In this document: positions 2,656 through 19,482 of the stretch, one piece after another
How the letters are laid out: every line of letters begins with the position of its first letter
Numbering within the stretch: the first letter of the stretch is position 1
IMG/VR virus record: IMGVR_UViG_3300006345_000096
Span: 1-21,042 of that record
Length of the DNA: 21,042 nt
Direction: 5' to 3' (one strand)
DNA from: a virus
Notes under the pieces: generated by a model
Databases searched by the model: none
Seen by the model: only the letters and a program-made list of their open reading frames with translations
What the model was told of the DNA's origin: nothing
Made by a program: the position numbers and the translations under genes

Positions 2656-2680
2656 TAACTGAACGTAACGGAATATATGT

Positions 2681-3097
2681 GTGGAACCCAACATAAACAC
2701 AGCGATATTAGAGAGATTAGAACGTGTAGTTGAATCATTACAGGAGAACTCATCAAAGATGGGTCAACTTCTTGCTGTGCATAATGAAAAGTTGGATAAG
2801 CAAGACCAGATAGATGGTGTCTTGTTTGAGAAGGTGGAGTCGTTACACAGAGAAGTAACCCGTAAGACAGATGAAATTAAGAAGGGGTGCGAGAGAGATA
2901 TACGTAAGGTGGATGACCGTCTTAGGACGATGGAAAAGAAAATGTGGAGTATCTTTGGTGGTCTTGCTATTATTAGTTTCTTGGTTAGTCCAGTCGGACA
3001 AAGAATCATCAAACCAATCTTGACAAATGCTAATGCATCTGCTATGCTTATTGAACCACTAGGTTCAGATGAGTTATCTCGACACAAAGTATATTAA
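2681..3097 (+). CDS. Coiled-coil protein with one C-terminal membrane helix
   Basis: GTG is the only start that keeps the frame; the ATG at 2677 is in another frame and soon stops. Residues 5-85 form a charged heptad-like helix (ERLERVVESLQE, then EKVESLHREV and DRLRTMEKK). A hydrophobic helix of about 20 residues follows (roughly 88-107, starting MWSIFGGLAII), then a short tail. A coiled coil plus one terminal membrane helix resembles XhlA-type lysis accessory proteins and other small phage membrane proteins; resemblance of layout is the only evidence. The gene sits behind a possible late promoter, which would fit a late lysis or virion role, and its 3' end overlaps the primase start by 29 bases. 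Confidence 0.65.
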   Translation: MEPNINTAILERLERVVESLQENSSKMGQLLAVHNEKLDKQDQIDGVLFEKVESLHREVTRKTDEIKKGCERDIRKVDDRLRTMEKKMWSIFGGLAIISFLVSPVGQRIIKPILTNANASAMLIEPLGSDELSRHKVY

Positions 3098-7521: not shown

Positions 7522-7609
7522 CTTGATGTGGGACATCGAAGAACTAAAACGTTCTATCGTTGAGTCTGCAGAAGAAAGTTATAATTTTGAGGACATGGCA
7601 GGAGGATGA
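7460..7609 (+). CDS. Small acidic protein overlapping the nrdB 3' end (49 aa)
   Basis: An ATG at 7460, in the +2 frame relative to nrdB, opens 49 codons without interruption and ends with TGA inside an ATGA shared with the next gene. The product begins MSSEESNKTS and continues with a helical, acidic second half (WDIEELKRSIVESAEES). The 84 bases between the nrdB stop and the next start are otherwise empty, which is rare in this packed genome, and the ATGA link supports translation through this frame. The start could instead be the ATG at 7526, giving 27 residues. No ribosome binding site is clear at either. Function unknown. Confidence 0.5.
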   Translation: MSSEESNKTSQKTPSQDYPSDLMWDIEELKRSIVESAEESYNFEDMAGG

Positions 7610-8004
7610 TTACACCTAAGATAGAGTTTTATAAACAGTTCGGCAAGGGATCAGACCCTTGGTACGCTAAGGCAGAGAGGTGGGCAAAGAAGCAACGCTT
7701 TCCTATCTCTTTCTTATTGCTTGGTGCTATCGAGTGGTTGAAAAATAAATGGATTGATGTTAAAATATATAATACAATGCGTGACGTAGATCGTCAGGCA
7801 GACGCAATCAAAAAGATCTGGGAAGAAGATGACAGAACAGAACCGAACATCGTGGAGACAGGAGTATTTGGAGATGAAGGCTGGTCTATCGAAATTTCAA
7901 ATCCAATTGTTGAAGGAGGGTCCTCATCAACTAGCACAGGCATGGTTACTCCAAGCGATGCACAACGATTACAAGAAGATGAAGGGGATAAAGGAACCTC
8001 CTAG
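7606..8004 (+). CDS. Hypothetical phage protein (132 aa)
   Basis: ATG at 7606 follows a clear GGCAGGAGG sequence, although that is very close to the start. The first 75 residues are well-formed protein: a basic N-terminus (PKIEFYKQFGKGSDPWYAK), a hydrophobic patch (PISFLLLGAIEWL, about 33-45) and a charged helix (TMRDVDRQADAIKKIWEED). The last 30 residues are Ser/Thr- and acid-rich and look less conserved. That stretch is shared with an overlapping frame that also looks coding (7829-8059), so either two genes overlap here or the reading frame shifts near 7900-7930. No family recognised. Confidence 0.6.
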   Translation: MITPKIEFYKQFGKGSDPWYAKAERWAKKQRFPISFLLLGAIEWLKNKWIDVKIYNTMRDVDRQADAIKKIWEEDDRTEPNIVETGVFGDEGWSIEISNPIVEGGSSSTSTGMVTPSDAQRLQEDEGDKGTS

Positions 8005-8059
8005 TCGAGAGTCGGGTTATCAAACTACACTAAAAGAATTTTTCAAAACCTATGAGTGA
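7829..8059 (+). CDS. Small hypothetical protein overlapping the previous gene (76 aa)
   Basis: The frame opens with ATG at 7829, preceded by GGGAAGAAG, and runs 176 bases inside the previous gene before continuing alone to a stop that overlaps the gcvP start. The second half looks real: QLAQAWLLQAMHNDYKKMKG is a plausible amphipathic helix, followed by a basic, aromatic tail ending FFKTYE. The unique portion fills the only space between 8004 and gcvP. A shorter version could begin at the ATG at 7961, which would reduce the overlap to 44 bases. Function unknown; tight linkage to gcvP suggests co-translation. Confidence 0.55.
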   Translation: MTEQNRTSWRQEYLEMKAGLSKFQIQLLKEGPHQLAQAWLLQAMHNDYKKMKGIKEPPSRESGYQTTLKEFFKTYE

Positions 8060-10796
8060 TTTTCTTAGAAGACATATAGGTCCTTCCAAGGATCAACAGA
8101 CTCAAATGCTACAGGATTTGGGTCTTTCTAATTTAGATGAACTCGTAAGACAAGTAGTACCAGATAGCATACTACTTCGAGGTGAGAATAACTTACCGAA
8201 AGGATGTCATGAACATCAAGCACTAGCAGAATTAAAAAATATAGCAAAAGCAAACAAAGTAAAACCTAGTCTTATAGGTCAAGGATACTATGGAACCATT
8301 ACACCCCCAGTCATACAGCGAAACGTTCTTGAGAATCCTGCTTGGTACACATCTTATACTCCCTATCAAGCTGAGATATCTCAGGGAAGATTGGAAGCTT
8401 TATTCAATTACCAAACGCTCATCACAGAACTTACAGGATTACCAATAGCAAACGCATCTCTATTAGATGAAGCAACTGCAGCAGCAGAAGCAATGCTGTT
8501 AGCATATAATTCTACAAGAGATAAGAAGACTGTCATAGTTGATCAAGATATATTCCCACAGACTCTAGCAGTTCTAGAGACCAGAGCAAAACCATTAGGC
8601 ATTGAAATTAAGATGCTTGATATCTTTGATACTATTGATCTTATAGAATTTGATGATGCATTTGCAATGATAGTTCAACTTCCAAATAAGAATGGACAAC
8701 TAAAATATTGTGATGCATTACTCAGAGTTGCAGAAGTATATAAGTGTGTCAAGATAGCAATCGTAGATCCTATGTGTCAGGTATTGATGCAACCTGTAGG
8801 TGAGTGGGGATTTGATATTGCTGTTGGTAGTATGCAAAGGTTTGGTATTCCTATGGGATACGGAGGTCCTCATGCTGCATTCTTTGCAACAACAGACAAG
8901 TATAAAAGAAAAATACCTGGCAGAATTGTAGGTCAGTCAGTAGATAGTGAAGGTAATAAAGCATATAGATTAGCACTACAAACTAGAGAGCAGCATATCA
9001 GGAGAGACAAAGCAACCAGTAACATCTGCACAGCACAAGCACTGCTCGCAAATATGTCTGGATTCTATGCAGCATATCATGGTGCAGAAGGACTACATGC
9101 TATAGCAAGAAGAATTAGATTACTACGACAAACTCTGCTGTCTGTTCTAAAATGGAATGGTTTTGAGGTAGATGACAACGAAGGATTTGATACTGTCAGA
9201 TGGAAGTCTGATGCACCAGTAGAAGGGTATAATGTCAAGTATGAAGGTGGTTACATTACACTATCTCTTGATGAACTATCAGACTTTGATACTGTATTTG
9301 ATGTTGTAAATACACAGAAAGATTATACACAACATAAAGATACTATCTACCAAGCATGGGATTATATTGTAGGATACAAATGGCATAGCATACCAGAAAG
9401 AACTAAACCATGGTTGACTCAGGAAGTATTCAATAAGTATCATAGTGAAACTGATATGATGAGATACATCTATGAGTTGTGCTCTAAAGATTTCTCATTA
9501 GTAAATGGTATGGTTCCACTTGGTAGTTGCACAATGAAACTAAATGCAGCATCAGAACTGATGCCTGTATCATGGGAAGAGTTTGCTAACGTGCATCCAC
9601 ATACACCTATGATACAGACCATGGGTTATCAAAAAATAATAGATGACTTACAGAAATGGTTATGTGATATCACAGGGTTTGATTCTATATCATTACAACC
9701 TAACGCAGGATCACAGGGTGAGTATGCAGGACTGTTAGCAATCCAAGCATACCATCAAGGATCAGGAGATGATAAAAGAAATGTATGTTTGATACCAGAG
9801 TCAGCACATGGAACTAATCCTGCTAGTGCAGTCATGGCAGGGATGAAAGTTGTGGGTGTTAAGTGTGATGATGATGGCAACATAGACATCAAAGATCTAG
9901 AGAAGAAAGCAATCATGAATACATTTGAACTGTCATGTATTATGATTACATACCCATCTACACATGGTGTATTTGAAACAAACATTAGACAGATATGTAA
10001 GATCGTTCATGAGAATGGTGGTCAGGTATATCTTGATGGTGCAAATCTAAATGCACAGGTAGGTCTAGCAAAACCATGTGACTATGGTGCAGATGTATGT
10101 CATCTAAACTTACATAAGACATTCTGTATTCCACATGGAGGTGGAGGTCCTGGCGTAGGTCCTATTGGTGTAGCAAAACATCTTACACCATTTGTAAATC
10201 AAAGAGTATCAGCAGCAGTGCAAGGTAGTGCATCTATCTTGCCTATCAGTTGGATGTATATAAGAATGATGGGTGCTGATGGACTCAAGCAAGCAACAGA
10301 GGTTGCATTGCTATCAGCAAACTGGTTAGCACATAAGATAGAAGACTCATTCAAAGTTCTATACAAAGGAGAGAATGGTAGGATAGCACACGAATGTATC
10401 TTTGACTGTCGTAACTTACCAGTAACAGCAGAAGACATAGCGAAGAGACTTATGGACTATGGATTCCATGCACCTACACTATCGTGGCCAGTGTTAGGAA
10501 CTATGATGGTAGAACCTACAGAGTCTGAGTCACTTGATGAGTTACAAAGATTTGTAGATGCTATGGATAAAATAAAAAGAGAGATACATACTATCCCAGA
10601 GATAGTAAAGAACGCACCGCATACACAGTCAGAGATATGTGGTGAGTGGGTGCATGCATACACACGTGAGGAGGCAGTGTTCCCCAACAGTCCCAAGCAC
10701 AAATTTTGGCCTGCTGTTGCTAGAATAGATAATGTGTATGGAGATAGAAATCTTGTATGTTCATGTTCGGTGATTATAGATGGCGACCTTAATTAG
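8052..10796 (+). CDS. gcvP: Glycine dehydrogenase (decarboxylating), P protein
   Basis: GcvP is the PLP-dependent P protein of the glycine cleavage system. It decarboxylates glycine and passes the aminomethyl group to the lipoyl arm of the H protein. The N-terminus RRHIGPS is characteristic. Both homologous halves are present in one chain of 914 residues, slightly shorter than the roughly 950-1000 usual in bacteria and organelles. Family signatures include MGYGGPHAAFF and IPGRIVGQS in the first half, PNAGSQGEYAG and PESAHGTNPASA in the second, and HLNLHKTFCIPHGGGGPG with K689 as the PLP lysine. No gcvT, gcvH or lpd is visible, so partner proteins would come from the host. The start overlaps the previous gene by 8 bases and the end overlaps the next by 17, so it is integrated in the phage transcription unit. 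Confidence 0.96.
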   Translation: MSDFLRRHIGPSKDQQTQMLQDLGLSNLDELVRQVVPDSILLRGENNLPKGCHEHQALAELKNIAKANKVKPSLIGQGYYGTITPPVIQRNVLENPAWYTSYTPYQAEISQGRLEALFNYQTLITELTGLPIANASLLDEATAAAEAMLLAYNSTRDKKTVIVDQDIFPQTLAVLETRAKPLGIEIKMLDIFDTIDLIEFDDAFAMIVQLPNKNGQLKYCDALLRVAEVYKCVKIAIVDPMCQVLMQPVGEWGFDIAVGSMQRFGIPMGYGGPHAAFFATTDKYKRKIPGRIVGQSVDSEGNKAYRLALQTREQHIRRDKATSNICTAQALLANMSGFYAAYHGAEGLHAIARRIRLLRQTLLSVLKWNGFEVDDNEGFDTVRWKSDAPVEGYNVKYEGGYITLSLDELSDFDTVFDVVNTQKDYTQHKDTIYQAWDYIVGYKWHSIPERTKPWLTQEVFNKYHSETDMMRYIYELCSKDFSLVNGMVPLGSCTMKLNAASELMPVSWEEFANVHPHTPMIQTMGYQKIIDDLQKWLCDITGFDSISLQPNAGSQGEYAGLLAIQAYHQGSGDDKRNVCLIPESAHGTNPASAVMAGMKVVGVKCDDDGNIDIKDLEKKAIMNTFELSCIMITYPSTHGVFETNIRQICKIVHENGGQVYLDGANLNAQVGLAKPCDYGADVCHLNLHKTFCIPHGGGGPGVGPIGVAKHLTPFVNQRVSAAVQGSASILPISWMYIRMMGADGLKQATEVALLSANWLAHKIEDSFKVLYKGENGRIAHECIFDCRNLPVTAEDIAKRLMDYGFHAPTLSWPVLGTMMVEPTESESLDELQRFVDAMDKIKREIHTIPEIVKNAPHTQSEICGEWVHAYTREEAVFPNSPKHKFWPAVARIDNVYGDRNLVCSCSVIIDGDLN

Positions 10797-11439
10797 TAAC
10801 ATGCCCGCAGAAGAAGTGTGGGTAAGAAAAGAATATCTAACTGATTTTCAATCAGGTCATGGTGAATTTACACCTGGCGTATGGGTATCTTGTAAATCAA
10901 TGCCAGGTAGAGCATTTTATTTTGAGACATATCTACCAGAGTATGCAGCAATATATGACAAGTTACCTATCAGTGCATTTGTAAGCGAACCTAAGACACC
11001 AGATCCTGATATGTCGTTAGAAAATTTACAGTTCTGGAACTGTATGGACTATGGTGTCACAACTATATGCAAACAGTTCATAGGTTCTATGGATTACGAA
11101 CTGTATACCAGAGACTATGGATCACAGTTAGGTAAGTATGTCATTACGTTAGACAACTATCATGATGAACCTGATACACCAGACTATAGCACAGCAGAGA
11201 CACCATCAGAACACAAGAGTCATAACCTGATAGCATTGAACAATGGTCAGTTTGCATTGTATCCTAATAATAGAATGAGAATATATGATAACTCATTGAC
11301 TCCTAAGAATCCTAAGATGCCTGACTTCAAGGTATCAACTAGAATATTCAGTGTAGAACGTGGTCATATGGAGAGATACGGAGACACAGATGACTACCAT
11401 TACGGTATCCAAGACAAAACTGTAACAGAGAATACATAA
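10780..11439 (+). CDS. Conserved cyanophage protein of unknown function (219 aa)
   Basis: The start at 10780 overlaps gcvP by 17 bases; an ATG at 10801 (MPAEEVWVRKEY) would remove the overlap and is about as likely. The protein is rich in aromatic and acidic residues, with stretches such as PGRAFYFETYLPEY (about 42-55), ENLQFWNCMDYGVTT (about 80-94) and NNGQFALYPNNRMRIYD (about 153-169). I recall closely similar proteins in many marine T4-like phages, always without a known function. No signal peptide, membrane helix or catalytic motif stands out. The many Tyr, Trp and Asp residues fit a compact beta-rich soluble domain. Confidence 0.75.
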   Translation: MATLISNMPAEEVWVRKEYLTDFQSGHGEFTPGVWVSCKSMPGRAFYFETYLPEYAAIYDKLPISAFVSEPKTPDPDMSLENLQFWNCMDYGVTTICKQFIGSMDYELYTRDYGSQLGKYVITLDNYHDEPDTPDYSTAETPSEHKSHNLIALNNGQFALYPNNRMRIYDNSLTPKNPKMPDFKVSTRIFSVERGHMERYGDTDDYHYGIQDKTVTENT

Positions 11440-11445
11440 GAATTT

Positions 11446-11453
11446 GCTAAATA
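11446..11453 (+). promoter_or_regulatory. Weak late-promoter-like element (GCTAAATA)
   Basis: GCTAAATA shares TAAATA with the T4 late promoter and sits 40 bases before the start at 11493, in one of the few intergenic gaps. Two mismatches to TATAAATA keep this tentative. Confidence 0.3.
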
Positions 11454-11459
11454 TGTATG

Positions 11460-11475
11460 GGTATGCTAACATACC
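11460..11475 (+). terminator. Short hairpin (GGTATG / CATACC), possible weak terminator or leader structure
   Basis: GGTATG, a CTAA loop and CATACC form a perfect 6-bp stem, followed by only three T residues. It lies between a late-promoter-like element and the next start, so it could terminate gcvP-side transcripts weakly or structure the leader of the mini-gene run. Confidence 0.35.
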
Positions 11476-11492
11476 TTTACGTTCATCCATAA

Positions 11493-11696
11493 ATGATAGA
11501 AGCAGTACTACTGGCATCTCTCCTTGCTGAACACAACGCTTCCCACTGGGAAATGACCTGTTCAGAATGGAATCAAAATAGGATCGAGATACTTAGCGAT
11601 AAGAATCTTAGGTCTGATGCTCAAGAGTATCTTATAGATTATTTTCTGACCAAAGTGTCAGGAGATTGCGACGCTTATATCATCGGACGCAAGTAA
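11493..11696 (+). CDS. Small conserved cyanophage-type protein (67 aa)
   Basis: The product starts MIEAVLLASLLAEHN and continues with a charged, Trp-containing middle (HWEMTCSEWNQNRIEIL) and LIDYFLTKVSGDCD near the end. The first 12 residues are hydrophobic but followed by acidic and polar residues, so this is not a convincing signal peptide. I recognise the pattern of a short N-terminal apolar helix followed by CxxW and a YFxTKVxGxC motif from small proteins in other marine myoviruses. The two well-spaced cysteines (CSEW and GDCD) might pair or bind metal. It is the first of five mini-genes. Function unknown. Confidence 0.65.
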   Translation: MIEAVLLASLLAEHNASHWEMTCSEWNQNRIEILSDKNLRSDAQEYLIDYFLTKVSGDCDAYIIGRK

Positions 11697-11711
11697 GCCG
11701 ACTCGGAACGG
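11695..11711 (+). repeat. Short direct repeat, copy 1 (AAGCCGACT..GGAACGG)
   Basis: AAGCCGACTCGGAACGG lies just after the stop of the 67-aa gene. A near-identical block occurs about 197 bases downstream at 11892-11910. Each copy sits at a gene end and about 15-35 bases before the next start. Confidence 0.5.
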
Positions 11712-11725
11712 GTTCGTTCATCCTT

Positions 11726-11902
11726 ATGTACCACATTCTTCTTAGTCTAATAGCAATTGGAGCACCACTTGATTGTGATCATGCTTCAGAACTTATAGAC
11801 TCTGCACGAAATAATCCTGATAAATCTGAGCAATTAGAAATTACAAGGGTTGTTATTGCACACACAGATCCAATGTGTTTTAAGGACGCAAAAGCCGACT
11901 GA
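11726..11902 (+). CDS. Small exported or membrane-anchored protein (58 aa)
   Basis: The frame is open from 11666, but the first ATG that leaves the previous gene is at 11726 and is preferred. It gives MYHILLSLIAIGAPLDCDHA: a short apolar N-terminal segment then a cysteine, followed by a soluble helical domain (SELIDSARNN, then EITRVVIAHTD) with a second cysteine near the end (PMCFKDAKAD). The layout fits a small periplasmic protein held by one disulfide, or a membrane-anchored one; the signal segment lacks basic N-terminal residues, so export is uncertain. Similar two-cysteine mini-proteins are frequent in cyanophages. Function unknown. Confidence 0.6.
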   Translation: MYHILLSLIAIGAPLDCDHASELIDSARNNPDKSEQLEITRVVIAHTDPMCFKDAKAD

Positions 11903-11910
11903 AGGAACGG
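11892..11910 (+). repeat. Short direct repeat, copy 2 (AAGCCGACT..GGAACGG)
   Basis: AAGCCGACTGAAGGAACGG spans the stop codon of the 58-aa gene and matches the copy at 11695-11711 apart from a small internal difference (CT-CGG against CTGAAGG). Confidence 0.5.
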
Positions 11911-11930
11911 ATGTCAAAGTCCAATTACTT

Positions 11931-11936
11931 TAGGAG
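11931..11936 (+). promoter_or_regulatory. Strong ribosome binding site (TAGGAG)
   Basis: TAGGAG ends 8 bases before the ATG at 11945 and fixes the start of a 38-residue gene too short for ordinary ORF cut-offs. Confidence 0.7.
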
Positions 11937-11944
11937 AAAACCAA

Positions 11945-12061
11945 ATGGCACAAGTCACATACCGTGGTGTTAAGTATGACACCAATGACTCAAAGAAAAA
12001 AGTCCAACAACCTCAAGCACAATTAGTGTATAGAGGCGTCGCTGTAAAAGGAGACAAGTAA
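11945..12061 (+). CDS. YRGV-repeat mini-protein, DUF4278-like (38 aa)
   Basis: The product contains the same short motif twice: QVTYRGVKYD at residues 3-12 and QLVYRGVAVK at 26-35, joined by a Lys/Gln-rich linker. The (L/V)xYRGVxY pattern is that of the DUF4278 family, small proteins of unknown function found mainly in cyanobacteria and their phages, which supports a cyanobacterial host. A strong TAGGAG site precedes the ATG at good spacing, and the next gene begins one base after the stop. No catalytic residues are expected in a protein this size; a binding role is likely. Confidence 0.75.
   Translation: MAQVTYRGVKYDTNDSKKKVQQPQAQLVYRGVAVKGDK
12047..12053 (+). promoter_or_regulatory. Ribosome binding site (AAAGGAG)
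   Basis: AAAGGAG lies inside the last codons of the 38-aa gene, 9 bases before the ATG at 12063, and supports a 29-codon membrane gene there. Confidence 0.65.
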
Positions 12062-12062
12062 A

Positions 12063-12152
12063 ATGTTGGCAGTCACAGAAATCATGCTCGCAAGCGTAGT
12101 TTTCTTGGCAGTTATCTACGCAGAGGCTAGAATCTTGTACAGTTATAAATAA
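12063..12152 (+). CDS. Single-helix membrane mini-protein (29 aa)
   Basis: Residues 2-19 (LAVTEIMLASVVFLAVIY) are almost entirely hydrophobic and long enough to cross a membrane, followed by a short charged tail (AEARILYSYK). A good AAAGGAG site precedes the start. Its stop codon TAA is contained in the late promoter TATAAATA, so this gene ends exactly where the next transcription unit begins. Tiny single-span proteins of this kind are common in phages and often modulate host membrane proteins; the target is unknown. Confidence 0.65.
   Translation: MLAVTEIMLASVVFLAVIYAEARILYSYK
12144..12151 (+). promoter_or_regulatory. T4-type late promoter (TATAAATA, perfect)
   Basis: TATAAATA is an exact match to the T4 late promoter. 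It is 23 bases from the ATG at 12175, with AGGAGGT in between. It is expected to be read by the phage late sigma factor (gp55 type) with the sliding clamp. Confidence 0.75.
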
Positions 12153-12159
12153 TTGTTAC

Positions 12160-12166
12160 AGGAGGT
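12160..12166 (+). promoter_or_regulatory. Full-consensus ribosome binding site (AGGAGGT)
   Basis: AGGAGGT ends 8 bases before the ATG at 12175 and is the strongest ribosome binding site seen in the window. Confidence 0.75.
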
Positions 12167-12174
12167 AAAGACAA

Positions 12175-12336
12175 ATGTTACACTTAAATTTGGATGGAAG
12201 TCCAAAGTTGCCAGAATACGACGCAGAAAAACACAACCCCGAAAAGGTGTTCGCTTTCCTGACATATCGTGGTCTGCATTATACAAAATGGGTGTATCTT
12301 GATCCTTTCCACATAAGAAACTGGAAAATAAATTAA
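12175..12336 (+). CDS. Small late protein with YRG motif (53 aa)
   Basis: The gene has its own perfect late promoter, a consensus AGGAGGT site and a strong terminator just after it, so it forms a self-contained late unit; high expression is expected. The product (starting MLHLNLDGSPKLPEYD) is rich in aromatic and basic residues. FLTYRGLHYTKWVYLD at residues 29-44 repeats the xTYRGxxY pattern of the 38-aa DUF4278-like gene upstream, so the two are probably related. No signal peptide or membrane helix. Function unknown. Confidence 0.75.
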   Translation: MLHLNLDGSPKLPEYDAEKHNPEKVFAFLTYRGLHYTKWVYLDPFHIRNWKIN

Positions 12337-12354
12337 TTGCCAAAGCTTAAATGT

Positions 12355-12391
12355 TGTCCTCGCTACATAGAGTAGTCGAGGGCATTTTTTT
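12355..12391 (+). terminator. Strong rho-independent terminator
   Basis: The arms GTCCTCG and CGAGGGC pair over 7 bases (one G·T), extended inward by CTAC/GTAG after a single bulged T, with an ATAGA loop, and are followed by a run of seven T. This would end the transcript of the 53-aa late gene. The T-tract ends only two bases before the next ATG. Confidence 0.85.
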
Positions 12392-12393
12392 AT

Positions 12394-12546
12394 ATGCAGA
12401 AATCAAGATTGAAAGTATTAATAACTCAATTAGAAGACATCCTCGCTGAACTTAAGTCTGAGGTATATGCTGACCCTCATTCTTATATTGACAGTGATGG
12501 AGAACAGTGGTATAGTGGTGACGACGATGACGGTTACGCAGACTGA
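12394..12546 (+). CDS. Small protein with acidic DDDD tail (50 aa)
   Basis: The product is a basic-to-acidic helix (MQKSRLKVLITQLEDILAEL) followed by a Tyr/Asp-rich tail ending SGDDDDGYAD. The pattern of an N-terminal helix with a terminal DDDGY(P/A)D is one I recall from small proteins in marine myoviruses. Its start is just two bases past a terminator T-tract and has no ribosome binding site, so it depends on read-through or on a promoter not recognised. The 3' end overlaps the next gene by 20 bases. Function unknown; the acidic tail could mimic DNA or bind metal, but that is a guess. Confidence 0.65.
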   Translation: MQKSRLKVLITQLEDILAELKSEVYADPHSYIDSDGEQWYSGDDDDGYAD

Positions 12547-12970
12547 TTATGACAACCCATGGGTCTACAAGAATACAACTTTCACTTCTGACGATATTGG
12601 CGATTTCTTCGGTTTCGTCTACAGGATTACTAATCTACAATCAGGTAAAAAATACATCGGAAGGAAATACTTCTATCAATTCAGAAAGCCTAGAGGTAAG
12701 TCTAGGAAAGTTAAGTCTGAAAGTGACTGGAAAAAATACTATGGGAGTAGTGATGAACTTAATACCGATAGAAAGACTCTTGGAAACGAATGTTTCAAAC
12801 GAGAAATAATATCACTACATACTACAAAAGGTTGGGTCAACTATGAGGAGACTCGCCAATTGTTTCTAAATAATGTACTGAGTGAGAATGAAAATTACTA
12901 CAATAGTAATATACTTGGACGTTACATGAGGAAGGATTATTACAATGAACAACGCACCACCGTCAGTTAG
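12527..12970 (+). CDS. GIY-YIG-like nuclease domain protein (147 aa)
   Basis: I start at the ATG at 12527 because the extra 20 codons back to 12467 are read in another frame by the acidic-tail gene. The domain matches a divergent GIY-YIG nuclease: GFVYRITN (29-36) for the GIY strand, KYIGRK (42-47) for YIG and the following arginine, a basic loop, DWKKYYGSS (68-76), a glutamate in NYEETRQLF (E107 or E108) at the usual catalytic place, and an asparagine in YYNSNI. GIY-YIG enzymes cleave DNA in homing, host-DNA degradation or repair. It stands alone with no DNA-binding extension and interrupts no gene, so a resident nuclease or a freestanding homing enzyme are both open. Confidence 0.7.
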   Translation: MTVTQTDYDNPWVYKNTTFTSDDIGDFFGFVYRITNLQSGKKYIGRKYFYQFRKPRGKSRKVKSESDWKKYYGSSDELNTDRKTLGNECFKREIISLHTTKGWVNYEETRQLFLNNVLSENENYYNSNILGRYMRKDYYNEQRTTVS

Positions 12971-13133
12971 AGAACAATGTGACTTGCATCTTACATGGAT
13001 GCAGGACAGGATTGAAGAATTACTTCTTGAAAAACTTTATGATGAAGCGTATGACTTGTACTTGGAATGGAATGAATGGGTAGAACAGGATAACCCTTCT
13101 ATATTAATACTTGAATCCCATGAAAACAAATGA
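12945..13133 (+). CDS. Small acidic helical protein (62 aa)
   Basis: An AGGAAGG site lies in the end of the nuclease gene at good spacing before this ATG, and the two genes overlap by 26 bases. The product (MNNAPPSVREQCDLHLTWMQ) is strongly helical and acidic, with Trp- and Tyr-rich turns (EAYDLYLEWNEWVEQD, about 34-49). No membrane segment or known motif. It resembles small conserved proteins of marine phages, without known function. Its end overlaps the start of the next gene by 14 bases. Confidence 0.65.
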   Translation: MNNAPPSVREQCDLHLTWMQDRIEELLLEKLYDEAYDLYLEWNEWVEQDNPSILILESHENK

Positions 13134-13584
13134 TTTAAAATATCTTTATGAATGGGCAGCAGAAACTGAATTTCCGTTACGACGAGCTCCAACTGCTGTT
13201 GGTTATTCTAACAAGGATATATACTTCTGTTGGTTGAAAGCACTAACTAACAATGGTGGCGGGGTTAGGGAGTCTGTGGTCAGAGACCAGAGAGCAAGAG
13301 ATATATTAAAATCAGATGAGATACTTGTAGCAACTATTGCCTTGTTTGAATCTGGCACAGAACTAGGACCTCATAAAGATCCTCCTGTGTATGATAAAAA
13401 ATATAGAAGGATACAAATACCTCTACACATTCCCTCCGAAGATTGTTATATGATATGGAGAGGAAGAAAAGTTTTTTGGAAAGAAGGAAAACCTCAAATA
13501 TTTGATGTGATGGATTATGTTCACGAAGGATATAACTATTCACCTGATGATATGATCTTTCTGTTTATAGACATAGTAAAATGA
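13120..13584 (+). CDS. Aspartyl/asparaginyl beta-hydroxylase-like protein (154 aa)
   Basis: I start at the ATG at 13120; the frame also offers a TTG at 13111. The core matches the AspH-type 2-oxoglutarate dioxygenase family: SGTELGPHKD (78-87) with H85 as iron ligand, YRRIQIPLHIP (95-105) with an arginine in the position that binds 2-oxoglutarate, the family pattern of WKEGKPQIFD (120-129), and YVHEGYNYS (133-141) with the distal H135. The animal enzyme hydroxylates Asp/Asn in EGF-like domains and lacks a facial carboxylate; here D87 follows H85 as HxD. The single-domain size equals only the catalytic core. The substrate is unknown, probably a protein. It overlaps the next gene as ATGA. Confidence 0.8.
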   Translation: MKTNDLKYLYEWAAETEFPLRRAPTAVGYSNKDIYFCWLKALTNNGGGVRESVVRDQRARDILKSDEILVATIALFESGTELGPHKDPPVYDKKYRRIQIPLHIPSEDCYMIWRGRKVFWKEGKPQIFDVMDYVHEGYNYSPDDMIFLFIDIVK

Positions 13585-13811
13585 CAACAGTACAATGTAA
13601 ACTATGCAAAGAGATACTCACATCTAAACATGATCACGACTATAAAGTTTGTAGTTGTGCAAACCAAACTTACGTTAAAGGTGATGTGATGGGTGGTAAT
13701 AATCTCAAGCACGTATTAGAAATTAAAGAACCTAAACAAAAAGAGATTAAAGTAGAGGGTCAAAGACCACGTAGAAGAACTACTAAAATGTCAGACATAA
13801 TGATTAGATGA
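13581..13811 (+). CDS. Zinc-ribbon-like small protein (76 aa)
   Basis: The first half holds C6-K-L-C9 and C24-S-C26 with a histidine pair at H17 and H19, an arrangement suitable for one zinc ion. The second half is basic (EIKEPKQKEIKVEGQRPRRR), as expected for nucleic-acid contact or protein docking. It is joined on both sides by ATGA overlaps to two 2OG-oxygenase-like genes, so it is very probably co-translated with them and might provide substrate binding, though no direct evidence shows that. I recall CKLCxEILTSKHxHD-type proteins in phages and bacteria as a domain of unknown function. Confidence 0.65.
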   Translation: MTTVQCKLCKEILTSKHDHDYKVCSCANQTYVKGDVMGGNNLKHVLEIKEPKQKEIKVEGQRPRRRTTKMSDIMIR

Positions 13812-14554
13812 ATATATCTTATTGTCCTCCTATAATAGATGCCAACTCTCTTGTAAATTTAAAGGATGAGGTGAGAGCATTCAATCCTTTAGCTGGCAAT
13901 ATGTGGTTAGGTATACATGATGAACCTGATAATACAATAGAAAGATACATACAAGATTCTTTTGACTTCTATCTAAAAGATAACTATAACTATTCTGGAA
14001 TACCTATGGGTGCACCTGTTGGTTTTGAATGGTGGTTTCATATCTTTGAAGATAATGATAGAGCAGTTGGATTTCATTCAGATCACGATGAGGTGATGAG
14101 AATGGAGGATGATGGGATGATGAGATACCCTTTCTGTTCTACTATAACTTATTTGACAAATCATATTAGTCCTACTATAATAACAAATACTATGACAGGT
14201 GGGTATGTAAAAGAGTTACTTAACTTCCCTCCAACTGAAGTGGTATTCTCATCACCAGAAGAAGGTAAGTTTGTAACATTTGATCCCCGCTATATACATG
14301 GCGTTTTACCTGACAGAAACGAGGGTAGGATAACCTTGATGTATAATGTATGGCATTATCATCCTAAAGGATTACATAGAATAGGTTGTAAGAGATTACC
14401 TCTTCCCTCTAGGTTCTATAAAGAACAAGTCAAAAGACCTGTACAATGGTTAGGTAAGACTGGTACTTGTAGAGCAGATGTAATAGACTTAAGGTTTGAC
14501 TTTAAGTATCCTGTTGGTGCAAACGAAGGAGATTGTTGGAGTGTAACTCAATGA
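13808..14554 (+). CDS. 2OG-Fe(II) oxygenase-like protein (248 aa)
   Basis: The motif set is clear: GFHSDHDEVMR with H90-S-D92 as the HxD pair, a distal histidine in RYIHGVLPDR (H164), and R174 ten residues further on (EGRITLMYN), the place of the 2-oxoglutarate-binding arginine. WWFHIFED (75-82) would be the strand before the HxD. The spacing of about 70 residues between HxD and the distal histidine is normal. The C-terminal 60 residues (after KGLHRIGCKR) form an extra basic segment that may define the substrate. No close relationship to the 2OG genes at 1876, 13120 or 14987 is apparent. The start shares ATGA with the zinc-ribbon gene. Confidence 0.75.
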   Translation: MNISYCPPIIDANSLVNLKDEVRAFNPLAGNMWLGIHDEPDNTIERYIQDSFDFYLKDNYNYSGIPMGAPVGFEWWFHIFEDNDRAVGFHSDHDEVMRMEDDGMMRYPFCSTITYLTNHISPTIITNTMTGGYVKELLNFPPTEVVFSSPEEGKFVTFDPRYIHGVLPDRNEGRITLMYNVWHYHPKGLHRIGCKRLPLPSRFYKEQVKRPVQWLGKTGTCRADVIDLRFDFKYPVGANEGDCWSVTQ

Positions 14555-14727
14555 TAGAAATTACCCAAAAAGAATTTGAAGAAAAAAAAGACTACTACTG
14601 TGACAAAGCAGAAAGTGGCACAGTGGTTCTTGTAGAAAAACCTGATGGTGCTAAAATAATGGTAGTTCCACAGAATCCAAACGATTTATCTTATGACTAC
14701 CTCAGAGACCACAACGATGGCTGCTAA
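14551..14727 (+). CDS. Phd/YefM antitoxin-like small protein (58 aa)
   Basis: I start at the ATG at 14551, in an ATGA overlap with the preceding stop, not at the TTG at 14533. The product follows the Phd-type pattern: a short strand (MIEITQ), a helix (KEFEEKKDYYCDKAESG) and a beta-hairpin (TVVLVEKPDGAKIMVVP). In Phd antitoxins this portion forms the DNA-binding dimer, and a disordered tail neutralises the toxin. Here the tail is short and acidic (NPNDLSYDYLRDHNDGC), and no toxin-like gene is adjacent. It may be a regulator of its own operon or an orphan antitoxin against a host toxin; both are inference. Confidence 0.55.
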   Translation: MIEITQKEFEEKKDYYCDKAESGTVVLVEKPDGAKIMVVPQNPNDLSYDYLRDHNDGC

Positions 14728-14986
14728 GACAGAAGTAATCTTAGAAAGATTCCCATACAGATTCGTCCAGAAAGGTTTGCTAGAAATCAATGGCGAACCA
14801 GACTATCGTATACAAAAGTTCAACGAAGTCACACGTCTTTACAGAGATATGTACTACCTTGACAGTTCCATACAATTAGACTATTGTATAGAAGACCCTG
14901 AGTATGTAAAATGGTTAGACCCAGACCCAGAGGTCGCTGCTTATCCCAACCAAGGTGATAGCGTGTCATACCAACCAGCAATCTAA
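14717..14986 (+). CDS. Conserved phage protein of unknown function (89 aa)
   Basis: Starting at ATG 14717 gives MAAKTEVILERFPYRFVQKG and an 11-base overlap with the previous gene; an earlier in-frame ATG at 14693 is possible. The middle has many Tyr and Asp residues (RDMYYLDSSIQLDYCIEDPEY). The C-terminus (DPDPEVAAYPNQGDSVSYQP) is proline-rich. There is no membrane or catalytic motif. I recall highly similar short proteins in cyanophages, with no assigned role. Its stop is immediately followed by the next ATG. Confidence 0.65.
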   Translation: MAAKTEVILERFPYRFVQKGLLEINGEPDYRIQKFNEVTRLYRDMYYLDSSIQLDYCIEDPEYVKWLDPDPEVAAYPNQGDSVSYQPAI

Positions 14987-15619
14987 ATGCAAAATCAAAG
15001 TGAACTAATAGCTCTATTCTCCACACCTTTATACAAAACGAGAATAGAGGTAGACCCTATTATCAATGAAGACTTTTTAAAAACAATACCATATCAACCT
15101 TACCCTGATAAGACTGGTTGGAGTAGTCAAGATTGTCAGATTCTTAAGAACAAAAATTTTAAATCACTTAAAGAACAGATTGATAAACACGTTGAAATTT
15201 TTCTGTACCAAGTAATAAAGATAGGACAAGGTAAACCCAAGCATACACAATCATGGATCAACAAACACGGTCCTATGGGATACTCACCTAAACATTATCA
15301 TACAAATTCATTTGTAAGTGGTGGAGTATATTTAGAATGCCCTCCTAAATGTGGTGCAATCGTATTCAATCAATCACACACTCACCCTTCGTGGAGTGCT
15401 AATACAATTAGACCCGCACTAAGTGAGTTGACCATATTTAATGCAGACAACTGGGCATTTGAAGTTAACAGAGGAGATCTATTGCTTTTCCCATCACACC
15501 TTATGCATCAAGTAGAGAATAACTTGTCTGGTAAAGATAGATATATGGTTGCATTTAATTATTTTATAGAGGGAGAAATCGGAGAACATACTGGTGCTAT
15601 GAAACTAAGGGTGTCATAA
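14987..15619 (+). CDS. Putative 2OG-Fe(II) oxygenase, cyanophage type (210 aa)
   Basis: The protein fits the putative 2OG-Fe(II) oxygenase group common in marine phages. It begins with a short FSTPLYKTRI segment typical of that group. The likely iron-site motif is PKHYHTNSFVSGGVYL (101-116) with H103/H105, then LLLFPSHLMHQV (165-176) with H174, and R185 in GKDRYMVAFNYF. SWIN (89-92) before the histidines is also usual. The strict HxD aspartate is replaced by N107 in HTN, as I recall for this group. In cyanophages such genes are widespread and their targets unproven. The gene follows the 89-aa gene without spacing, and its stop lies within the next late promoter. Confidence 0.75.
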   Translation: MQNQSELIALFSTPLYKTRIEVDPIINEDFLKTIPYQPYPDKTGWSSQDCQILKNKNFKSLKEQIDKHVEIFLYQVIKIGQGKPKHTQSWINKHGPMGYSPKHYHTNSFVSGGVYLECPPKCGAIVFNQSHTHPSWSANTIRPALSELTIFNADNWAFEVNRGDLLLFPSHLMHQVENNLSGKDRYMVAFNYFIEGEIGEHTGAMKLRVS

Positions 15620-15622
15620 ATA
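15615..15622 (+). promoter_or_regulatory. T4-type late promoter (CATAAATA)
   Basis: CATAAATA matches the late consensus at seven of eight positions and lies 21 bases before the ATG at 15644, overlapping the previous stop codon. Confidence 0.6.
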
Positions 15623-15643
15623 ATAAAAAATAGTCTGTGAAAG

Positions 15644-16438
15644 ATGACTTGGACACCTCATATTATCGTTAAGATAGAAGATGATGCTTCTACACCCACA
15701 GCGATTACAGCATTAAAAACATTTGAAACTGGATTCCCAGAGCATAAAGCATATGTACATTACATTGGTTCTTTACCTACTGGGTTGAACTTTTGTAAGG
15801 AATGGTGTAAGGAAGGAGGACATACTTTCTTTCATCACGGTTCCAACGTCAAGCAATCACAGTTACATTATGAGATAGTAAACGGTACAAGAGAACCAGT
15901 TGTTCTTATCAGAGGTACAACAGTTTTCTATGATGATATGAGTGACTACAGTACTACAAAACTATTTGGTGCTGATACTGTTCCATCATATAAACTATCT
16001 GATACTGTAATTAACATCGCTAGTATAGAAAAGACCGTAATATTTGTAGCAAAACCTATTCAAACAATATCTAAGTTAGAAGAGATAACAAGTCTTGTAG
16101 CAGCACCAATAGCAACAGAAGGAAAGAACAGTGCTATGTGGAACGATCAGTCTGTAGTTATGTGTGGTAAAGTATATCATCAGACATCAGGTATCTTTAA
16201 CATGATATACAACTTTGATGAGTCACTCTTTACAAACTTTAGTAAGGTGACATCAGAAAAGTATGATACAGTCTTTGGTGGTAATGGATTATCAGGGTTT
16301 GAGAAGTTAAGAAACGTAGGTATGGATCCATCTGGTTTTATGCCATACTATAATGCTGCTATGAATGAGGATTGGGAAGGAGTCAAGGGAATATATGACG
16401 TTTATCTAGATATGATAAGCGGTAGTGTGGTAAAGTAG
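15644..16438 (+). CDS. Unknown late protein (264 aa)
   Basis: The protein starts MTWTPHIIVKIEDD and ends MISGSVVK; it has its own late promoter. Two regions draw attention: an N-terminal alternation of strands and helices (HIIVKIEDD, then AYVHYIGSLP), and residues 85-101, PVVLIRGTTVFYDDMSD, where a hydrophobic strand runs into an acidic turn. This arrangement is weakly reminiscent of the acidic metal site of GT-A glycosyltransferases, but no canonical DxD or sugar-nucleotide motif can be confirmed. The later part (residues 170-260) is aromatic-rich, with CGKVYHQTSGIFN and GMDPSGFMPYYN stretches. No signal peptide. The function is not known to me. Confidence 0.65.
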   Translation: MTWTPHIIVKIEDDASTPTAITALKTFETGFPEHKAYVHYIGSLPTGLNFCKEWCKEGGHTFFHHGSNVKQSQLHYEIVNGTREPVVLIRGTTVFYDDMSDYSTTKLFGADTVPSYKLSDTVINIASIEKTVIFVAKPIQTISKLEEITSLVAAPIATEGKNSAMWNDQSVVMCGKVYHQTSGIFNMIYNFDESLFTNFSKVTSEKYDTVFGGNGLSGFEKLRNVGMDPSGFMPYYNAAMNEDWEGVKGIYDVYLDMISGSVVK

Positions 16439-16465
16439 CTATATAAAACAGAATAACTTTATACT

Positions 16466-16861
16466 ATGGCAGAAGTAAAAGAGAAACCGAAAGGTCCTCT
16501 AGGTAAACTTAAAGAAGTAGCAGAAGATAAAGAAGAACAACTTCAATACTTAGCTACACTCATAAGAGTGATAGTCCTTGTTTGGTCAGCAGGAATCTTG
16601 ACGTTGAATTACGTTAAAATACCAGGCTACGAAAGAGGAGAGAGAATTGATCCGACCTTTATAGCTTCGGTCTTCACAGGAACTTTAGCTACTTTTGGCG
16701 TTTCCGCTGGAGGTAAGAAAAAGAAAGATGAAGGTGGTGGTAGTGCTAACATATCTAAAAAGGATATGGAGTTCCTTATTGCTAAAGCATCTGAAACTGC
16801 ACCTGCCCAAACCATAAGGATTGAATCTGGTCCTGTTAAAATTGTCCCTGATACCAAGTAA
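16466..16861 (+). CDS. Two-helix membrane protein, holin-like layout (131 aa)
   Basis: A basic, acidic-balanced N-terminus (MAEVKEKPKGPLGKLKEVAE) precedes a first membrane helix at about 29-50 (LATLIRVIVLVWSAGIL), a short polar turn, and a second helix at about 63-82 (PTFIASVFTGTLATFGVSAG). A Lys-rich cytosolic segment (GKKKKDEGGG) follows. The layout matches two-helix class II holins, but equally other phage membrane proteins, and I recall it as a conserved cyanophage protein of unknown role. A 27-base AT-rich gap with TATATAAA lies upstream. Two further membrane-associated genes follow. Confidence 0.7.
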   Translation: MAEVKEKPKGPLGKLKEVAEDKEEQLQYLATLIRVIVLVWSAGILTLNYVKIPGYERGERIDPTFIASVFTGTLATFGVSAGGKKKKDEGGGSANISKKDMEFLIAKASETAPAQTIRIESGPVKIVPDTK

Positions 16862-16865
16862 AATC

Positions 16866-17102
16866 ATGCAAAAATTAATTAATGTACTCGCTGTTTCGTC
16901 TGCTGTTGTATCTCTTACCGTTGTTGGCATTGGCGGTTACGTTTATGTACGTAAGGATGCAATCATAGAAAGCATCAAAGAGAAAGCACTAGGTTCCCTT
17001 GGTGGTGGAGCATTAGGTGGTGTTACTGATATGATACCAGACATGGGATCACCAGAGTCACCTGCAGTTCCTCCTGTTGGTCTAGGAGTTCCTAGCTTCT
17101 AA
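16866..17102 (+). CDS. Small membrane-anchored Gly/Pro-rich protein (78 aa)
   Basis: The frame opens earlier, but the ATG at 16866, just past the previous stop, gives the sensible product MQKLINVLAV, with a membrane helix at about 4-27, a short basic segment (YVRKDAIIESIKEKAL), then a Gly-rich stretch (GSLGGGALGG) and a Pro-rich end (SPESPAVPPVGLGVPSF). The helix could act as an uncleaved signal anchor, leaving the Gly/Pro tail on one side of the membrane. Its neighbours are both membrane-associated, so a shared envelope role is likely. No known family. Confidence 0.65.
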   Translation: MQKLINVLAVSSAVVSLTVVGIGGYVYVRKDAIIESIKEKALGSLGGGALGGVTDMIPDMGSPESPAVPPVGLGVPSF

Positions 17103-17103
17103 A

Positions 17104-17859
17104 GTGCCTATCAGGGAGATAGAAATAAACAATATTGGGGTTCGTGATGTTAATGTATACACGTTCCCTACTCCTCATGCTTTCGTACCATACCAACCAG
17201 TTACTGCAGAGATTGGTACACCTATAATAAACATACCTGGTTGTGTAGAAGCACACGAGTTTAGCGATAGAAATGATAAGATAATAGAAGACGATTCAAG
17301 TACCGTTAAGGTATTTTGTGATGCAGGTGTTCCTAGTTATAATGCTATGAACTTTGAACCTGAGCAATTATTAATAACAAGACCAGAACAAGTACCAGTG
17401 GTAGCACCACCAGAAGTACCAGAAACAAAAGTTCCTGAGACACCTAAGGTAGATGGAGATCCACCATGTCCAGGACCTAATGCATTAAGGATAGGAGATA
17501 TAGCAACAAATCAAAAAGAAAAAGTATCAGGACATGAGTTAAGGGTTAATCCCCAGAATCCTGGTGGAGCGAAAATCTGTGTTACATTATATACTGATAT
17601 ACCACCAGTCGAACAATTTTTACCATCGACTCAGGTAGCAGCCACTACAGCAGTAATCGGTGTTACTGCAGCGACATCTGCCCTATTTGCAAAACCTCTA
17701 GCTGACTTGATTCTGAGGGTAGTGAAACCTGCTGTGAAGAAGGTGATTTCCAAAATTCAAACCAGCGTCGGGAAGACCCCTGATCGTCCTTCTCGTGATC
17801 TTGTTCGTGCGAATGCTTATCGTCAGAAGAAAGGTCTACCTCCTCTAAAGAAACGGTAG
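17104..17859 (+). CDS. Conserved phage protein with proline-rich linker and membrane helix (251 aa)
   Basis: A GTG at 17104 starts one base after the previous stop. Residues 1-95 form an ordered N-terminal domain (REIEINNIGVRDVNVYTFPTP; conserved-looking cysteines at about 47 and 72). Residues 97-121 are Pro/Val/Glu-rich (VAPPEVPETKVPETP). A further domain with two cysteines (PPCPGPN and AKICVTLY) follows, then a hydrophobic segment at about 178-206 that could span the membrane, and a strongly basic tail ending KKGLPPLKKR. I recall the N-terminal pattern from cyanophage proteins of unknown function. The last 197 bases are also read on the opposite strand by a convergent gene. Confidence 0.75.
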   Translation: MPIREIEINNIGVRDVNVYTFPTPHAFVPYQPVTAEIGTPIINIPGCVEAHEFSDRNDKIIEDDSSTVKVFCDAGVPSYNAMNFEPEQLLITRPEQVPVVAPPEVPETKVPETPKVDGDPPCPGPNALRIGDIATNQKEKVSGHELRVNPQNPGGAKICVTLYTDIPPVEQFLPSTQVAATTAVIGVTAATSALFAKPLADLILRVVKPAVKKVISKIQTSVGKTPDRPSRDLVRANAYRQKKGLPPLKKR

Positions 17860-18478
17860 GTTGTTGAGATAAAACATGAGTATGTTCTGCTACTACACCT
17901 GGTGGGTTTACTAACATAACATCCTCACATACCTTGGCATACCTGCTTCCTGGTACAAATATTATACCAGCTTTCATCAATTCTCCACAATTTTTTAACC
18001 TGGCTATTTCAAAGTCAAGGCGTTTATTGGCAGTGTTTTGTTCTACTGCTGCCATCTGTATCTCAGCAGCATTTTTACATAGTTCTTGTAGATCTTTGTC
18101 TAATGGTTTAGACCATGTAGCAGAGACACCTACTGATAAATTATAATTGTCTGTCTGTCCTGTTCTTGTTGGAACGAAATATAATACCTCTCCTGGATTG
18201 TCGATCTGACCATCATCATCGGCATCATGAACATCGTATACTGGATCATCATAGTATCGTTCAAAAGGTTTCTTCCATGTTACGTTTCCTGTTACAAATG
18301 GGGTAACGTTCATGGTAGGTCCTTGGCATTGTATACCACCACCATAAGTATTAGTTATATATGGTCCTTGAAGCACCTGTATAGCTTGGTTTGTGACACT
18401 TCCAGAACTGTTTGCGATTGGCGATGCAGTAGCACTCACCCCACCAACGGTCTCTGCCATGGTAGGTAAAGAGTTCAT
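17663..18478 (-). CDS. Exported-type protein with Ca-binding-like loop and His-rich tail
   Basis: The frame has a canonical ATG at 18478, used here (271 residues), but it is open upstream to 18667. The codons between 18478 and about 18530 encode a convincing signal peptide (KRNRYNKYIPTVIAAVLG, then MNSLPTMA) without any ATG, GTG or TTG at its head. The true start may therefore be a non-standard codon such as the ATT at 18508, or a base may be wrong. Counting from 18478, the mature protein has D85-A-D87-D-D89-G90-Q-I-D93, a DxDxDGxxD calcium-loop pattern, four cysteines, a helix (QNTANKRLDFEIARLKNCGEL) and a His/Asp-rich tail (DDKHSHEQDHEKDD). The 3' end overlaps the convergent gene by 197 bases. 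Function unknown. Confidence 0.7.
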   Translation of the reverse strand: MNSLPTMAETVGGVSATASPIANSSGSVTNQAIQVLQGPYITNTYGGGIQCQGPTMNVTPFVTGNVTWKKPFERYYDDPVYDVHDADDDGQIDNPGEVLYFVPTRTGQTDNYNLSVGVSATWSKPLDKDLQELCKNAAEIQMAAVEQNTANKRLDFEIARLKNCGELMKAGIIFVPGSRYAKVCEDVMLVNPPGVVAEHTHVLSQQPTVSLEEVDLSSDDKHSHEQDHEKDDQGSSRRWFEFWKSPSSQQVSLPSESSQLEVLQIGQMSLQ

Positions 18479-18495
18479 ACCGAGTACTGCTGCAA

Positions 18496-18942
18496 TTACT
18501 GTTGGAATATACTTGTTGTATCGGTTACGCTTGTTATTGTTGTCGTTCTTTGTATCACAGTGTGATTCTGAAGACCAGCTCCAGAATAACTTTCTACCAG
18601 AGAAAAGCTTGCTCCTGGTGTCGTCATTGTGACTGCTGGTTTTGTTGATAAATCTAAGTTTGTCCATGTTGAATTCACACCGTTAACGGTATTAGTTGAT
18701 GTCGAAGTATCAGGTGGTGTCAACCCTTCTGGGTCGTTGACTGTTACCCCGTGGCCAGAAATTGAATAGGTAAAACCAGTGGAGTAGTCCATACTATTTA
18801 TGGTCTCCACCACGGTACTAGTAGTTTCTGTATGGCTAGTCATCGAGCCCTGGGTGAAATTAGGCACCACAGGGACAGCTTGGGCAACTGGCACATTCAC
18901 AAGGGCAGTGGCACCCACAATCAGGACAAGTATCTTTTTCAT
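18496..18942 (-). CDS. Exported Thr/Ser-rich protein, paralog of the upstream gene (148 aa)
   Basis: MKKILVLIVGATALVNVPVAQA is a textbook signal peptide with cleavage expected after A22. The mature part is rich in Thr, Ser and Val, with few charged residues and no cysteine, which suggests a beta-rich extracellular or periplasmic protein. YSISGHGVTVND and PGASFSLVESY match, in the same order, YTVSGNNLKVSD and VGSAFSMSETF of the 165-aa protein just upstream, so the two are probably tandem paralogs. A TAGGAT sequence precedes the start. The stop at 18496-18498 lies within the frame that encodes the next gene's signal peptide. Confidence 0.75.
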   Translation of the reverse strand: MKKILVLIVGATALVNVPVAQAVPVVPNFTQGSMTSHTETTSTVVETINSMDYSTGFTYSISGHGVTVNDPEGLTPPDTSTSTNTVNGVNSTWTNLDLSTKPAVTMTTPGASFSLVESYSGAGLQNHTVIQRTTTITSVTDTTSIFQQ

Positions 18943-18955
18943 TAGACATAATATC

Positions 18956-19453
18956 CTACTTTATGGTAAGTTCTGACACAAACTGTCCAGTAGCTGAAGT
19001 TCCAGCTCCACCTGCTGTAATCGTAGTCACACCAGCAGATGTGATAGTACCAGCTAAGGTACCTGCTACTCCACCTGATGTGGTAGTTGTACTACCAAGT
19101 AATGGTAATGAAGCAACGACTCCACCAGAAACTGTAGATGCTGAAGTTACATCGTCACCTTCGATAAAGGTTTCCGACATACTGAATGCTGACCCTACAG
19201 TATTTAATTCTAGTGCTGATGAGGTATATCCAACAGCAGTACCTGAGGATAATGTTCCTAATCCACCAAAGGATCCACCATCACTTACTTTCAAATTATT
19301 TCCACTAACGGTATAACTTGATCCTATGCGACTAGCCTGGCTTGCAGCCGAATCCACGCTCAATTGTACACTAGAACTCATTTTATGTACTATCTCTGCT
19401 GATGCAGGAGATATCATCAAAAACATACCAAGTAACAATGCTTTTTTGATCAT
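18956..19453 (-). CDS. Exported Gly/Thr/Ser-rich protein (165 aa)
   Basis: MIKKALLLGMFLMISPASA is a clear signal peptide with cleavage after A19. The mature protein is low in charge and rich in Ser, Thr, Gly and Val, with a repetitive second half (VSGGVVASLPLLGSTTTTSG, then GVAGTLAGTITSAGVTTITAG). This composition fits a beta-structured surface or secreted protein. It is first in the minus-strand cassette, 22 bases after a perfect late promoter, so it is expected late and strongly. It resembles its downstream neighbour in motif order. I recall similar pairs in cyanophages, but no tested function. Confidence 0.75.
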   Translation of the reverse strand: MIKKALLLGMFLMISPASAEIVHKMSSSVQLSVDSAASQASRIGSSYTVSGNNLKVSDGGSFGGLGTLSSGTAVGYTSSALELNTVGSAFSMSETFIEGDDVTSASTVSGGVVASLPLLGSTTTTSGGVAGTLAGTITSAGVTTITAGGAGTSATGQFVSELTIK

Positions 19454-19474
19454 GTTAACAAATGTTTCTTGTTT

Positions 19475-19482
19475 TATTTATA
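19475..19482 (-). promoter_or_regulatory. T4-type late promoter, minus strand (TATAAATA, perfect)
   Basis: The plus strand reads TATTTATA, which is TATAAATA on the minus strand, 21 bases before the start of the first exported protein at 19453. It is the only perfect minus-strand late promoter seen and explains expression of the reversed cassette. Confidence 0.75.

Follow-up and report, generated by a model that had tools for sequence, protein, structure and literature searches.

A reversed cassette of three genes for predicted exported proteins (A, B, and C) and two neighboring genes (D and F) together form one module that crosses virion types in marine cyanophages, a relationship that is new. 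We hypothesize, with a probability of about 0.5, that this cassette is a late envelope-disruption (lysis) module that would take the place of spanins. In the mechanism that we propose, A, B, and C would act with D, F, and often E as one conserved marine-cyanophage module at the last step of infection: F would permeabilize the inner membrane at a set time, A and B, whose beta arms are unusually long, would assemble in the outer membrane or the periplasm, and these two with C and the anchored D would bridge and break the outer membrane, which is the job of spanins elsewhere.

The reversed cassette and its export signals

The window, i.e., the whole stretch of DNA analyzed, is a 21,042-base fragment of a Prochlorococcus T4-like phage. 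P-HM1 and MED4-213 share ~91% identity with parts of its positions 1 to 16944, which do not include the cassette. No likely gene of the window other than A, B, and C lies on the minus strand, as the earlier note had stated; the three ORFs, overlapping or adjacent, fill positions 17663 to 19453 (Table 1). On the plus strand, F and E directly precede D, which is convergent with C, with a 197-bp overlap between its end and the tail of C, and hsp20 is the divergent right-hand neighbor of the cassette. In myoviruses, the module adjoins hsp20 or regA and is not part of a lysis cluster, which speaks against a lysis role. The antisense overlap of C and D was considered as a regulatory feature and rejected: its length varies (4 bp in P-HM1 and 80 bp in Syn9) and the two genes are collinear in other phages, and the overlap is therefore incidental. 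Elsewhere in the window, a full-length glycine dehydrogenase gene (8052 to 10796) lies shortly after nrdA and nrdB; it is also present in P-HM1, P-HM2, and MED4-213.

Table 1. Positions of the cassette, its partner genes, and associated features in the window
Feature	Position	Strand	Description
Gene A	18956..19453	-	165 aa; phrog_564 ("OMP1" in S-RSM2 and S-CAM1); predicted exported; Ser/Thr/Gly-rich; paralogue of B
Gene B	18496..18942	-	148 aa; phrog_650/DUF6322; predicted exported; two very long beta strands in the model
Gene C	17663..18667	-	334 aa; phrog_848/phrog_1755; predicted exported
Gene D	17104..17859	+	251 aa; phrog_570
Gene E	16866..17102	+	78 aa; phrog_568; single N-terminal TM
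Gene F	16466..16861	+	131 aa; DUF6450; small, two TM, holin-like; travels with the cassette
Late promoter TATAAATA of the A-B-C operon	19475..19482	-	Exact match, 21 nt before the ATG of A
Signal peptide of A (predicted)	19397..19453	-	Cut after ASA, residue 19
Signal peptide of B (predicted)	18877..18942	-	Cut after AQA, residue 22, directly ahead of VPVVPNF
N-terminal extension and signal sequence of C (predicted)	18455..18667	-	Cut after TMA, residue 71
B/C out-of-frame overlap	18496..18667	-	172 nt

Signal peptides were scored in 33 genes of the window by a simple rule that asks for a basic n-region, a hydrophobic core, and an AxA-type cleavage site. A and B pass the rule, as do E and one other small ORF. 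The cut site is of the ANA/ARA/ASA type in 88 distinct A sequences and AxA or AxS in 128/128 distinct homologues of B, so the textbook signal peptides ascribed to these two proteins hold up. C passes the rule only at residue 71. Its signal occupies residues 52 to 71, behind an extension of ~50 residues in which K, R, N, and S are abundant. The hydrophobic core comes next, then a cut site of the AxA type ahead of a near-invariant VGGVSATA; this site is found in 124/124 distinct homologues. By the rule and by conservation in homologues, A, B, and C thus all carry the features of Sec export, C with a long n-region, and the signal peptide prediction that had been proposed as a check was positive for each of them.

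The earlier note had placed the signal of the third protein just upstream of its first ATG, but it lies downstream of the first ATG (18667), which is within B. This ATG is formed by the last letter of a variable B codon and the TGG of an invariant Trp, and it is kept in 161/161 loci although the overlapping codon varies (ACA in 82, TCA in 49, and others in the rest, each ending in A). Since that codon ends in A in every locus, the ATG of C inside B is real, and a later start codon near the signal was rejected on the same count. The B/C overlap measures 166, 169, 172, or 178 nt in 160 of the 161 loci, and the conservation of B fourfold sites is 0.53 inside the overlap versus 0.415 outside.

A and B are paralogues (hhalign probability, 96%; E, 2e-9). 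The AlphaFold and fold searches suggested earlier gave a usable model for B and a poor one for C. The model of mature B is of fair confidence (pLDDT, 82; pTM, 0.49), with strands of 23 and 24 residues near both ends flanking a small beta domain. It has no significant fold match among solved structures; its insignificant PDB neighbors are mostly ring or barrel subunits with long hairpins, those at the top of the list including the phi29 and Andhra collars, lysenin, aerolysin and related pores, and FliF, which hints that B may be a ring-forming protein. Against viral models, the named matches of B at E values of <0.001 are all from marine phages. The C protein combines beta segments with a 42-residue helix, four invariant Cys residues, and a variable tail; the model of its mature form was too uncertain to use (pLDDT, 62), and a fold search with it returned nothing. 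Searches of PDB sequences with the A, B, and C profiles gave nothing significant.

An exact TATAAATA had been noticed ahead of the reversed genes. It is present, but the exact motif occurs no more often than expected by chance (two in the window versus 1.6 expected) and was rejected as stand-alone evidence. What is conserved is its position: a TAAATA core is found in the 60 nt before A, mostly 20 to 28 nt ahead of the ATG, in 97/106 distinct homologous loci, versus 2.4% of random windows drawn from the same loci. The core is rare before B (10/129). The longer form NATAAATA, which has been reported as the late promoter in S-PM2 and further cyanomyoviruses (PMC2984593), precedes C in 0/138 cases. 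Therefore, A-B-C looks like a late operon with a single promoter, and these results support the proposal of a reversed cassette, behind a late promoter, that encodes three exported proteins.

One module in phages of three virion types

The membership of phrog_564, phrog_650, phrog_848, phrog_570, and DUF6450 in the cassette was established by profile matches (A, 1e-46; B, 2.6e-55; C, 9e-129; D, 7e-74; F, 3.5e-33) and by adjacency in IMG/VR loci. Hundreds of cyanophage records carry the A, B, and C families, annotated as "hypothetical" or "OMP1", and none of the families of A through F has a named function apart from a doubtful label of E. OMP1 of Synechococcus phage S-RSM2 (AJ628768) is a homologue of A with 48% identity, but its name is an annotation given beside psbA/psbD, and no test of an outer membrane location was found. 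E (phrog_568, T4-GC 414) is labeled "plasmid stability protein" in many records. This label is probably spurious and misleading; a plasmid stability role of E and mobility of the cassette were rejected, their sole support being the phrog_568 label.

Part of this gene set has been described before. Sullivan et al. (2010) listed T4-GC 218, 219, 234, 235, and 237 as a hypothetical cluster present in 15/16 cyanomyoviruses and thought to be functionally linked (PMC3037559). Locus notes in P-HM1 and S-SM1 equate them with the genes described here (F, 218; D, 234; C, 235; B, 236; A, 237). The available portion of the main text mentions no export signals, A/B paralogy, podovirus or siphovirus copies, or link to lysis, and it reads the "plasmid stability" neighbor as a sign of mobility (PMC3037559).

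The module was recognized across virion types by following weak hits of C in podoviruses and siphoviruses. Besides T4-like myoviruses, both P-HS2-like siphoviruses and T7-like podoviruses carry it, always clustered but with its order rearranged. The expectation of the same cassette in other marine T4-like phages was thus correct but too narrow. In myoviruses, the A-B-C order is fixed and D flips strand while staying adjacent. Siphovirus P-HS2 (D, 2e-51; E, 4e-21) has F-A-B-C followed by convergent D-E, an order shared by 38 of 48 full loci on IMG/VR contigs. In podoviruses P-SSP7 (F, 2e-37; B, 2e-32; C, 2e-53), P-GSP1, and S-TIP37, the four genes D, F, B, and C are clustered, and all 40 uncut podovirus loci on IMG/VR contigs show the order D-F-B-C. 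The podovirus D proteins match phrog_570 weakly (E, about 1e-3 to 1e-4) and have their own family, phrog_9426. Among 14 cyanophages, the module is all or none: eight have B, C, D, and F, with B of P-SSP7 assigned by PHROG and the podovirus D hits being weak, and six (S-PM2, Syn5, P60, PSS2, S-CBS4, and Pf-WMP4) have none of the four.

Compared with P-HM1, which is closely related to it in other parts, the window shows 97% identity in F, 52% in E, 39% in D, 57% in C, 58% in B, and 37% in A. Identity drops at the cassette edge (16861 to 16944), and the right-hand neighbor is hsp20 here and hli genes in P-HM1, as if the edge were a recombination boundary and the cassette had been exchanged by recombination.

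Conservation across myoviruses, siphoviruses, and podoviruses, the particles of which are unrelated, argues against a role in the virion or its assembly, in which A, B, and C would join or decorate the particle or serve as envelope-attached assembly factors. Such a role would agree with the late promoter, late proteins being mostly structural, and the neighboring hsp20 has been proposed to aid capsid maturation (PMC3037559). Signal peptidase sites in essentially all homologues speak against it, as does the appearance of these genes as unlabeled hypotheticals in the record of S-SM1, a phage with a measured virion proteome; labels are no reliable guide, and this last evidence is weak. We found no support for the earlier suggestion that the proteins decorate released particles, and we consider a virion role quite unlikely.

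Searches of about 85,000 genomes for cellular homologues gave 10 hits, apparently on phage contigs, and a cellular origin of the genes was rejected accordingly. C homologues occur on two contigs with the size of a whole T4-like cyanophage: QCLS01000003.1 (189 kb), from a Prochlorococcus single cell, and NZ_RMVE01000006.1 (188 kb), filed under Nonlabens xiamenensis 1Q3 and probably a misplaced phage. This absence from cells speaks against an auxiliary role in the periplasm or thylakoid lumen, such as nutrient capture or support of photosynthesis, which would be in keeping with the supply of the thylakoid lumen by cyanobacterial Sec and with the presence of pstS, psbA, psbD, or transaldolase near the cassette in some phages. 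However, no enzyme or binding family is among the profile matches, and the auxiliary metabolic genes of P-HM2 fall in its middle expression cluster instead of the late one (PMC5082946). Of the explanations considered, this one appears the least probable.

A candidate lysis function

Among the functions offered in the earlier note, conditioning of the envelope for lysis is the best supported, on the basis of the genomic position in podoviruses, the two-TM F, the probable C-terminal anchor of D, and the spanin-less phages that carry the cassette. The recurrence of the clustered genes across virion types, their all-or-none distribution, the conserved late promoter core, and the long strands of the B model were also counted in its favor, and the lack of a significant fold match among solved structures was counted against it. 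In P-SSP7, the cassette lies between the tail-fiber region and PSSP7_047, the small terminase subunit (PF11123; E, 2e-18). The holin gene of T7, 17.5, sits between gp17 and gp18, and this correspondence of position was counted toward a lysis role. F resembles class II holins in its small size, its pair of TM segments, and its charged ends, and in the location of its podovirus orthologue in the T7 holin slot. Its hydrophobic segments start at residues 29 (2.21) and 65 (1.53), KKKK follows the second to give a charged C-tail, and the P-SSP7 orthologue is recorded with two TM segments by TMHMM. F differs from class II holins in matching only DUF6450 and the function-unknown families phrog_2714 and phrog_721, with no match to holin profiles.

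D has an acidic Pro-rich N-domain, one TM segment toward its C-end, and a basic C-tail (+3 to +19), a layout seen in 142 myovirus, 5 podovirus, and 2 siphovirus sequences. Judging from charge, D is probably anchored in the inner membrane by its C-end with the Pro-rich domain outside. Spanins were not found in P-HM1, Syn9, S-SM1, P-SSM2, or P-SSP7 in a 2018 survey, the authors of which proposed that the spanin job could fall to an outer membrane protein together with an N-out protein whose TM is C-terminal (PMC6139136). D fits this suggestion through its N-domain, single TM, and basic tail, which are kept in all three virion types. Against the lysis reading, D has no signal peptide, and its N-domain crossing the membrane would therefore be unusual.

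Like the two-component spanins (Rz/Rz1 and T4 PseT.3/PseT.2), the cassette has late overlapping genes for exported proteins in phages of Gram-negative hosts and a Pro-rich partner, D, that is membrane anchored. It differs from them in having three exported proteins and an anchor at the C-end rather than the N-end, and no cassette member matches spanin or holin profiles. Spanins have a lipobox, whereas the sites of A, B, and C are of the AxA, signal peptidase I type with no Cys at +1, unlike an o-spanin lipoprotein. Nor is there a counterpart of an i-spanin with an N-terminal TM and coiled coil: the TM of D is C-terminal, and E has a short tail after its N-terminal TM with no evident coiled coil. 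That the cassette represents a new class of lysis apparatus common to unrelated marine cyanophages, in which the paralogues A and B, with beta arms of 23 to 24 residues, would form a ring or barrel in the outer envelope that, linked through the helical C to a C-anchored inner membrane protein and triggered by a DUF6450 holin, would replace lipoprotein spanins, is a tentative and rather doubtful extension of the lysis reading.

S-PM2, Syn5, P60, PSS2, S-CBS4, and Pf-WMP4 are likewise listed as spanin-less (PMC6139136). These six lack the cassette, which is thus not a general or the only solution, and other routes exist. In P60, a gene annotated as lysozyme and one for a TM/coiled-coil protein occupy the slot of the podovirus cassette; the latter protein has a weak Rz-like spanin hit (E, 0.03), and Syn5 has the same TM/coiled-coil family (phrog_12220). 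These small proteins with an N-terminal TM and coiled coil, both encoded in that slot, are gp38 of P60 (6062 to 6325) and gp47 of Syn5 (6393 to 6653); given the marginal hit of P60 gp38, the two phages may have an i-spanin after all. PSS2, S-PM2, and S-CBS4 match one glucosaminidase-type lysozyme, for which no match was found in the cassette-bearing phages among the 14 genomes. Either of two lysozymes is present in 4/6 cassette-less versus 0/8 cassette-bearing phages (Fisher, 15/1001), a contrast drawn from 14 genomes with the two families picked after looking. PSSP7_050 (40359 to 42065), a large uncharacterized P-SSP7 protein adjoining the terminase, matches an endolysin PHROG in part (about 100 residues; E, 1e-9), which counts against this contrast.

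The main rival to lysis is superinfection exclusion or surface remodeling, in which A, B, and C would coat or plug outer membrane receptors late in infection and so keep sister particles from being wasted on a dying cell or on what remains of it. The rule-predicted signal peptides on all three proteins, their beta-rich and repetitive sequences with no enzyme family, and the carriage of the cassette by same-host phages whatever their virion type are all compatible with this explanation. It would not lead us to expect the tight link that is seen in each of the three virion types to a small, two-TM, holin-like F and to an anchored D, nor the T7 holin slot in podoviruses, and known exclusion genes are usually early and phage specific. 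We therefore regard exclusion as unlikely, and lysis remains our preferred reading.

A large share of ocean carbon is moved when phages lyse Prochlorococcus and Synechococcus. Of 91 phages without recognizable spanins in a survey of 677, 20 infect these two genera (PMC6139136), and a 2026 paper still treated the lysis mechanism of Syn9 as open (PMC13371907). The module described here is present in hundreds of cyanophage genomes of three virion types and was not found in our searches outside cyanophages. It provides a short list of deletable genes in phages already open to engineering: recombinant methods work for both Syn9 and S-TIP37 on Synechococcus WH8109 (PMC8776855). From the combined evidence we infer that the cassette is a strong candidate for the breakage of the outer envelope in marine cyanophages.
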